Of a DNA stretch of 64,000 nucleotides, positions 14,588 through 59,230 are shown in pieces (within the stretch, counting starts at the first letter, position 1; every line of letters begins with the position of its first letter). The notes under the pieces are model-generated. The model was not told the origin of the DNA. It worked only from the letters and a program-made list of their open reading frames with translations, and searched no databases. A program made the translations under genes and the position numbers. This stretch comes from Adhaeribacter rhizoryzae (GTDB lineage: Bacteria > Bacteroidota > Bacteroidia > Cytophagales > Hymenobacteraceae), in NCBI RefSeq assembly GCF_008629685.1, contig NZ_VWSF01000022.1, positions 1 to 64,000 of the forward strand. The letters are read 5' to 3'.

Positions 14588-14635
14588 AAATATTATACCA
14601 TTATCAAATTGAAAATGCACCCTAGTTTCTTATCA

Positions 14636-14801
14636 AATATTTTCTAAAGCATGCCCACGCAATCCAGTCATTCTGCAGAATTCGAAGAATTCCAAAAGAA
14701 TCTTATTAGCAGTTAACCGATAAGATTCCTCCGGAATGACAGCGTTGGGTGGTATGGCCTTATATATTTAAAAGCGCAGCAATCATTTTATTTTGGTATT
14801 A
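14636..14801. repeat. dispersed palindromic intergenic repeat, copy 1
   Basis: Shares with copy 3 (44849-44997) the left flank AATATTTTCTAAAG, a GTCATTC...GAATGAC hairpin with AATCTTAT/ATAAGATT inner arms, a G-rich GTTGGGTGGTATGGCCTT segment and an identical 25-nt right flank (14777-14801). The left hairpin arm here carries extra bases, so the stem is imperfect. Confidence 0.8.
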
Positions 14802-14817
14802 AACTACGGCATAAAAA

Positions 14818-14851
14818 AATAGCCCGGACAATATTATTTGTCCGGGCTATT
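14818..14851. terminator. bidirectional terminator between GH43 and galM
   Basis: AATAGCCCGGACAA pairs with TTGTCCGGGCTATT (14-bp perfect stem, 6-nt loop), with T/A tracts on both sides. It lies between convergent genes. Confidence 0.9.
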
Positions 14852-14887
14852 ATTTTTATAAGTTATGTATTTAGAAAAATATTAGCG

Positions 14888-36413: not shown

Positions 36414-36430
36414 TTAAGCGCCAATATTAT

Positions 36431-36488
36431 AAGTATATAAACAAGCAGGCTGATTATTTAAATAACCAGCCTGCTTGTTTATATACTT
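36431..36488. terminator. 58-bp near-perfect palindrome between convergent genes
   Basis: Two 29-nt arms (36431-36459 and 36460-36488) are reverse complements with a single mismatch and no loop base between them; the core includes AAGCAGGCTG / CAGCCTGCTT. It lies 17 nt past the MFS stop and 29 nt before the stop of the opposing gene. It most likely works as a bidirectional terminator, but it is longer than the other terminators in the window. Confidence 0.8.
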
Positions 36489-36517
36489 GTAGCTAAAATT
36501 ATTATCTGTAAAAAGGG

Positions 36518-43108: not shown

Positions 43109-43563
43109 TTGAAAACTAGCTTAAATATTAACTCCCGAAATAAATTATACTAAATATTAAGCAGGAATTGCGCTTTGAAAGCAACAAAATAATTACAACC
43201 AAAATCCACTCGCCGCGGTTATTCTGGAAGAATCTTATTGGCTATCTGCTAATAAGATTCTTCCAGAATGACCGCGATGGGAGGTATAGCCTTGGCTTTA
43301 TTTAAAAGCGCAGTATGCATTTGATAAGGATATTAATACGGTTAGGGTTAAGAATTGCGCCTTTCTTACTACGCCATCTAAATTGTAATTCTTTTAATTT
43401 TTTCGACCCGTCGCTCCGGTAAAAGTTACATCCGGCCTTTATTTAACCTGAATTTTAAACCTTACTATTCCTTACTTACCTTCTAAACCTAGGCAAGTTT
43501 GAATATTCAGGCTATTAAAATTTGTAGATTTTTAATTTTTAAAAAACCTTAAATCAAAAGTTT
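43109..43563. other. 455-bp gap holding repeat copy 2
   Basis: Contains the palindromic repeat at 43204-43320 and otherwise AT-rich sequence leading to the beta-helix gene. No ORF. Confidence 0.5.
43204..43320. repeat. dispersed palindromic intergenic repeat, copy 2
   Basis: 26-nt arms at 43214-43239 and 43251-43276 pair with one mismatch around an 11-nt loop (GGCTATCTGCT). The centre ATTCTGGAAGAATCTTATT is shared with copy 3, while the outer bases differ in a compensated way. It is followed by GATGGGAGGTATAGCCTTGG and TTTAAAAGCGCAG as in copy 1; the far right flank diverges. Confidence 0.85.
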
Positions 43564-44754: not shown

Positions 44755-44786
44755 AAAAAGCCGCACCAGTTAGGTGCGGCTTTCTT
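44755..44786 (+). terminator. terminator after the beta-helix gene
   Basis: AAAGCCGCACC (44757-44767) and GGTGCGGCTTT (44773-44783): 11-bp perfect stem, 5-nt loop, then a T/C-rich tail. Confidence 0.9.
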
Positions 44787-44848
44787 CTTCGTTAAAGTTG
44801 TGTTATTAAACCCCGATTAAATTAAAATTGCGCATTAGCTTTCTAATT

Positions 44849-44997
44849 AATATTTTCTAAAGAACACCCACTCACCACGGTCATTCTGGAAGAATCTTAT
44901 TGGCTACCTACGAATAAGATTCTTCCAGAATGACCGTGGTGGGAGGCCTGGCCTTTGCTGTATTTTAAAGCACAGCAATCATTTTATTTTGGTATTA
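44849..44997. repeat. dispersed palindromic intergenic repeat, copy 3 (best copy)
   Basis: Perfect 29-nt inverted arms at 44873-44901 and 44913-44941 with an 11-nt loop (GGCTACCTACG). The left flank AATATTTTCTAAAG (44849-44862) and the right 25 nt (44973-44997) are identical to copy 1. Confidence 0.9.
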
Positions 44998-59171: not shown

Positions 59172-59230
59172 CTGTCATTCAGGAGGAAACTATGTTGTTA
59201 CTTGCCAAATAGTTTCCTCCTGAATGACAG
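59172..59230. repeat. palindromic intergenic repeat, diverged copy 4
   Basis: Perfect 22-nt arms at 59172-59193 and 59209-59230 with a 15-nt loop. The outer GTCATTC / GAATGAC matches the other copies and a GGGGTGGA follows, but the inner stem (AGGAGGAAACTAT) differs. May double as a terminator for the SDR gene. Confidence 0.65.

Follow-up and report, generated by a model that had tools for sequence, protein, structure and literature searches.

A REPIN-like palindrome probably carried by MITEs with IS630-type ends in Adhaeribacter rhizoryzae

Dispersed palindromic repeats were analysed in a window of Adhaeribacter rhizoryzae DNA, by which we mean the whole stretch of 64,000 nt, and were compared with the rest of the genome (G000) and with other genomes. 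As judged from sequence, three of the repeats (copies 1–3) are probably non-autonomous MITEs that have the ends of a local IS630-family element and are built around a separate, REPIN-like core module. Common ends, target duplications of 3 bp and 7 bp, IS copies with the same ends, homology of the core across backbones and copies of the core without conserved flanks were observed directly. From these we infer that transposases act on the elements in trans, and that the core was taken up by the MITEs in one piece and then rode along.

Copies in the window and pairing of the core

The four hairpins described in the initial annotation are present at the positions claimed. Reading of the sequence confirmed that copies 1 and 3 have a common left end (AATATTTTCTAAAG) and a common 25-nt right end, and that the outer stem changes from CGCGG/CCGCG to CACGG/CCGTG in copies 2 and 3. 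The limits proposed for these copies (14636–14801, 43204–43320 and 44849–44997) were too short; the elements extend further leftward, as seen in an alignment of 40 copies or fragments. The hairpin at 59172–59230, taken for a diverged fourth copy, is instead a related AGGAGG-type hairpin, around which no TACC/GGTA ends were found. All four hairpins lie 3' of a gene, as had been noticed, and copies 1 and 3 are located between convergent genes (ORFs). Rfam gave no match at the gathering score anywhere in the window. The revised features are as follows.

14593–14595, unstranded: left target duplication of copy 1, TTA
14596–14798, + strand: copy 1, 203-bp element with terminal inverted repeats (TIRs; TACC...GGTA)
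14667–14740, + strand: core of copy 1, an inverted repeat pair whose left arm is the longer one (19 nt inserted relative to the other copies)
14799–14801, unstranded: right target duplication of copy 1, TTA
43145–43147, unstranded: left target duplication of copy 2, TTA
43148–43332, + strand: copy 2, 185-bp TIR element with diverged ends (TACT...GATA)
43218–43272, + strand: core of copy 2, 55 bp
43333–43335, unstranded: right target duplication of copy 2, TTA
44806–44808, unstranded: left target duplication of copy 3, TTA
44809–44994, + strand: copy 3, 186-bp TIR element with a diverged left end (AACC)
44880–44934, + strand: core of copy 3, 55 bp
44995–44997, unstranded: right target duplication of copy 3, TTA
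59174–59228, unstranded: copy 4, AGGAGG-type core with no element ends recognised around it

Two terminator-like hairpins with flanking runs of A and T (14815–14855 and 44757–44785) adjoin copies 1 and 3, respectively, and a near-perfect intergenic palindrome with arms AACAAGCAGGCTG is present at 36428–36491.

A BLAST search of the genome with copy 3, in which 40 of 60 candidates were scored, yielded 80 matching stretches on both strands, copy 2 being found at E = 1.8e-31, and the family alignment was made from this list. The hairpin core is a 55-bp, REPIN-like inverted pair of GTCATTC repeats. Folding was strong for copy 3 as DNA (z = −11.7) and for copies 2, 3 and 4 as RNA (z = −10.3, −11.1 and −7.4); the RNA fold of copy 1 had a z of only −2.0, and 8 of 200 shuffles were equally stable. 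The many further copies that the initial annotation expected of a real structured family were thus found in the genome, with pairing largely kept. In the 29 copies that have a 55-nt core (the 11 of 40 without one were dropped), 88.7% of the cells are paired, and both partners of a pair have changed in 40 cells; shuffles give 21.4 such cells and slid controls 3–12. Counted by pair, two-sided change affects 10 of 32, which is no more than expected by chance, as 121 of 500 shuffles reach 10. Since relatedness and copying from arm to arm can both raise the two-sided figures, they speak for a maintained palindrome and are not proof of selection at the RNA level. We therefore take the compensatory changes to reflect a maintained palindrome; arm-to-arm copying would also yield them.

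The asymmetric loop points one way in 13 of the 29 copies and the other way in 16, with both orientations in both flank groups; in nine copies of the IS982 type described below the ratio is 7 to 2. As the loop is seen in both orientations between fixed flanks, the core flips relative to them; either recombination or a template switch from arm to arm would be enough to explain this. This inversion is a second, separate matter. One further element (L051, G000:C24:22498-22647) has good ends and equal TAA triplets, and its core is shrunk to GTCATTCTGCAGAATGAC.

IS630-type ends and target duplications

The pattern of the ~30-bp ends has 102 matches in the genome, against 8 for the reversed control. 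Two pairs of matches lie ~1.1 kb apart (L117 and L116). L117 (C1:655263-656349, on a contig other than that of the window) has two overlapping frames, the first with HTH_33 and the second with DDE_3, which score 46 and 91 bits against the IS630 model, neither reaching the cut-off of 100 set for the whole protein. A run of A lies where the two frames overlap, as in programmed frameshifting, to which we would ascribe the arrangement. L116, also numbered L217, has its DDE_3/IS630 match in a shorter frame and is apparently a broken copy. Of 59 genomes, only 7 have a match to the DDE part of L117 at E ≤ 1e-10.

Nearly all elements found by their IS630-type ends hold a REP-dimer-like core, which is of two types. 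Classified by short motifs and counted as ends rather than elements, the 100 matches listed of the 102 fall into four groups: a GTCATTC core adjoins 40 of them and a GTCATCCTGAGC-type core 42, both motifs accompany 6, and 12 have neither; four of these 12 are the IS ends and several others are chance-like.

Target duplications were scored in the 48 elements that have both ends. The same triplet flanks both sides in 25 (shuffled mean 14.1, P = 0.00015); TWA is present on both sides in 29, and is identical in 25. A length of 3 alone stands out (z = 4.1, with z = 0.9 for a length of 2), and copies 1–3 are all flanked by TTA on either side. By core type, the duplications are equal in 14 of 23 GTCATTC elements (P = 0.0001) and, as a weak signal, in 11 of 24 elements with the other core (P = 0.07). 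The usual target duplication of IS630 is TA, not TWA; the 3 bp found instead in the family of copies 1–3 and its REP-dimer-like core of two types distinguish it from IS630-family MITEs.

Eight IS630 loci were examined for their ends (L210–L215, L217 and L218). Four IS630 copies from four genomes (L210, L213, L214 and L218) are bounded by TACC...GGTA ends with the same TWA on either side, L211 and L217 have ends of this type with unequal flanking triplets, and no such ends were seen at L212 and L215. A scan of named genomes for the IS630 ends returned eight stretches: in one, from an Adhaeribacter MAG, the two ends lie 1.1 kb from each other around frames with stops, and the other seven have a single, chance-like match each. 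In a comparison of a 20-kb stretch that includes three copies with two relatives (G001 and G007), the gene blocks aligned but the insertion points did not, and neither an empty site nor movement was seen.

According to the mechanism that we propose, an IS630 transposase acting in trans would attach to the ~30-bp inverted ends and place the element at a TWA site, of which the 3 bp would thereby be duplicated. The insertions lie for the most part between gene 3' ends. The likeness to IS630-family and other bacterial MITEs, as far as these are described in the available text of PMC3733652 and PMC10969869, lies in the short, non-coding sequence, the inverted ends matching those of an IS and the short target duplication.

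The core in other genomes and backbones

The pattern GTCATTC N25-55 GAATGAC occurs 131 times in the genome (0 times when reversed) and is present in 15 of the 39 genomes searched. Within the genus the counts are 33 (G001), 15 (G006), 8 each (G002 and G003), 6 (G007), 2 (G005) and 0 (G004); outside it they are 15 in G013 and 0–3 in the others, where reversed controls reach 2. In G002, G003 and G006, TGGAAG-type cores are located in elements with different ends, ACGTGNGTTCGA (ACGTG), which have 27, 41 and 21 matches in G002, G003 and G006, respectively (control 0). Three pairs of these ends ~980 bp apart were retrieved; two of them (L301 and L303) enclose a transposase of the IS982 type (249 and 255 bits, cut-off 130) and the third a shorter frame. 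Nine of 29 IS982-type elements and IS copies have a perfect 7-bp repeat, whereas shuffling gives 0.39 (z = 6.0); the three IS copies are not among the nine. The elements of the three genomes thus resemble IS982-derived MITEs in having IS982-shared ends and a duplication of several bp, the IS copies themselves being without a perfect 7-bp repeat. In two other relatives the core is present in elements with TACCAAAT ends, which resemble those of the IS630 element L214; the flanking triplets are equal in the one from G007 (L161) and unequal in the one from G001 (L201), and L200 has an ill-defined right end.

Over 234 pairs of IS630 and IS982 backbones, identity is 0.80 in the core, where the search pattern dictates seven bases at either end, and 0.26–0.41 in the flanks, a drop that the pattern does not dictate. 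The four best cross-backbone core matches cover 55–76 nt, and an arm insertion of A. rhizoryzae (e.g. L041 and L050) recurs in IS982-ended elements of G003 (L314 and L316). AGGAGG-type copies from G006, G005, G003 and G002 have a core identity of 0.94 and a flank identity of ~0.3 from the first base in 12 of the 13 given (the thirteenth was left out for a misfit in length); these 12 are therefore bare, a term that applies to the tested AGGAGG copies alone. Those of G000 and G001 have 20–30 conserved flanking bases, the flank information being calculated without small-sample control. Inverted flanks were scored around the cores of the relatives in a set of 54 loci, one of which (L300) is without a core; 17 of the 53 others have a score matched or exceeded by no more than 1 in 200 shuffles, and several of the 17 are AT-rich and unconvincing.

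Part of the AGGAGG-type hairpins have inverted ends of their own, AACTGNTGTTACGCAAAA, in G000 (e.g. L080, L089 and L090) and G001 (L275 and L279). These ends have 119 matches in G000 (32 in the control) and 58 in G001 (18 in the control), and no pair ~1 kb apart, as would indicate an autonomous partner, was found among the matches listed for the two genomes, which for G000 were the first 16 places. Another dispersed palindromic repeat (CCCCTGACT..AGTCAGGGG, CCCGGGGCTAAAGCACCCGGG) occurs in both genomes as well (L188:14358-14541 on G000:C2; L245, L247, L249 and L251 in G001).

The similarity of the cores bears on the view that the elements are ordinary IS630 MITEs born with a palindromic middle, in which case the core likeness would stem from a shared function as terminator-like hairpins together with common descent. 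The strong folding and the genomic setting are in line with this: 21 GTCATTC-MITE loci are convergent, 14 tandem and 1 divergent (36 of 40 loci, with a crude choice of ORFs), whereas convergent gaps make up 16% of the sampled intergenic length. The enrichment at gene 3' ends that the initial annotation suggested to look for is thus seen as a bias among these loci. The AGGAGG family, however, shows no convergent excess (29 tandem, 8 convergent, 3 inside ORFs and 2 divergent; n = 42), the cores match across backbones over the 55–76 nt given above, and convergence would hardly produce the same arm insertion in two species. We regard this view as very unlikely. Selection against insertion near promoters would explain the bias of the GTCATTC MITEs, and a putative terminator role of their hairpins is possible. 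In the reading that we prefer, MITEs around a separate module, the 55-bp hairpin would be an inverted pair of GTC-tagged REP-like repeats that, within the genus, appears both bare and in MITEs whose backbones belong to two unrelated families of IS, IS630 and IS982.

RAYT-like genes and known repeat systems

The initial annotation proposed a REP/MITE-like element mobilised in trans and pointed to TnpA_REP transposases. The first part holds in outline; the link to TnpA_REP/RAYT is unsupported for copies 1–3, since it is with an IS630-family transposon that these agree in their ends and in the 3-bp duplication of TWA, and since different repeats flank the RAYT-like genes that were examined. The genome has ten matches to Y1 transposases, nine of them over the cut-off, and five relatives have 15, of which 11 were scanned. 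Together with seven loci of A. rhizoryzae, this amounts to 18 RAYT-like loci, 15 of which are without a GTCATTC or GTCATCC motif within 350 bp: six of the seven own loci, the seventh having a GGCGCGGAAGTTACTTCCG repeat on both sides, and nine of the 11 in relatives (L323 and L335 have one motif each). At none of the 18 is the motif the gene's own flanking repeat. The scan was made without the own C53 locus, L321, L322, L326 and L327, and of the IS200-like L031 and L032 only the flanks were read.

These loci are relevant to the possibility that the repeat is a true REPIN moved by a RAYT (TnpA_REP), with the TIRs being a target sequence or a later acquisition and the likeness to IS630 incidental. 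An inverted doublet that forms one hairpin and has compensatory changes is typical of REPINs, in what is accessible of PMC3116915, and was found here; the core limits are sharp at GTC...GAC, 12 copies are bare, Y1 transposases are present, and one AGGAGG hairpin is located just downstream of a RAYT-like gene. What makes this possibility unlikely is that no RAYT flanked by the same repeat was found among the 7 own and 11 relatives' loci, and that the TWA duplications of copies 1–3 are at the TIRs, not at the core. The hairpin at C1:207838 was considered as the cognate REP of the nearby RAYT-like gene and rejected, since the gene is flanked on either side by a repeat of its own, outside which the hairpin lies.

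Three related RAYT-like genes lie within 7 kb of each other (G000 C45:199734, 202889 and 206259), each beside GTAGAGTTAGCGCAGCGCTCTAC-type inverted repeats. Four IS982-type MITEs of G003 (L304, L306, L307 and L312) also contain GCGGAAGTTACTTCCG, the flanking repeat of a RAYT-like gene in G000, G006 and G002.

The MITEs around a REPIN-like module, which we favour, were compared with further known systems. REPINs and their RAYTs (PMC3116915, available text) are alike in the inverted doublet within one long hairpin, the compensatory changes and the sharply bounded bare copies, but here no cognate RAYT was found among the loci scanned, and in the window the doublet is enclosed by a TIR element that has a target duplication of its own. 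CGTC REPs, according to the accessible part of PMC3733652, have a CGTC tag (or TGTC, CCTC), a stem of 8–9 bp that starts with AT, and a tail CCA; they are mostly inverted dimers without a known dedicated transposase, and some REP dimers are located in palindromes of unexplained origin (H. neapolitanus and A. variabilis). The present repeats have an xGTC tag of varying first base, followed by AT, and share the inverted dimers and, with no cognate RAYT among the loci scanned, the lack of a known dedicated transposase. The stem of a single unit, as read from the sequence, is ~5 bp (ATTCT-GGA-AGAAT), which does not match the combination of an 8–9-bp stem and a CCA tail; the dimers are therefore not assigned to the CGTC REPs, whose stem length they miss. 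QMITE2 of Coxiella is likewise a MITE holding a REP, but of the GTAG type, and an exchange of backbones is not mentioned in the available text of the review (PMC10969869). The IS982-derived MITE of Cardinium also belongs to a member of the Bacteroidota; the accessible portion of PMC9769881 does not mention a REP-like core. There are precedents for MITEs of both IS630 and IS982, for REPINs and, in QMITE2, for a REP carried by a MITE. One lineage of REP-like dimers in MITEs of two IS families and bare within one genus was not found in searches of open-access papers, and none of the 10 papers listed by a motif search has a title on these repeats.

A wider reading, which we offer tentatively, is that orphan REP-like dimers may be second-order parasites: a 55-bp GTC...GAC palindrome would enter the MITEs of any IS that happens to be active, be it IS630 as in one species or IS982 as in others, be amplified by the enzyme of that IS, be able to invert inside the MITE and also move bare. 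If true, this would explain the spread of orphan CGTC-type REPs. REP-like dimers riding in MITEs would make the question of their spread testable at the bench, with partner elements and defined ends. A palindromic repeat may be counted as a REP family while MITE transposition supplies part of its copy number.
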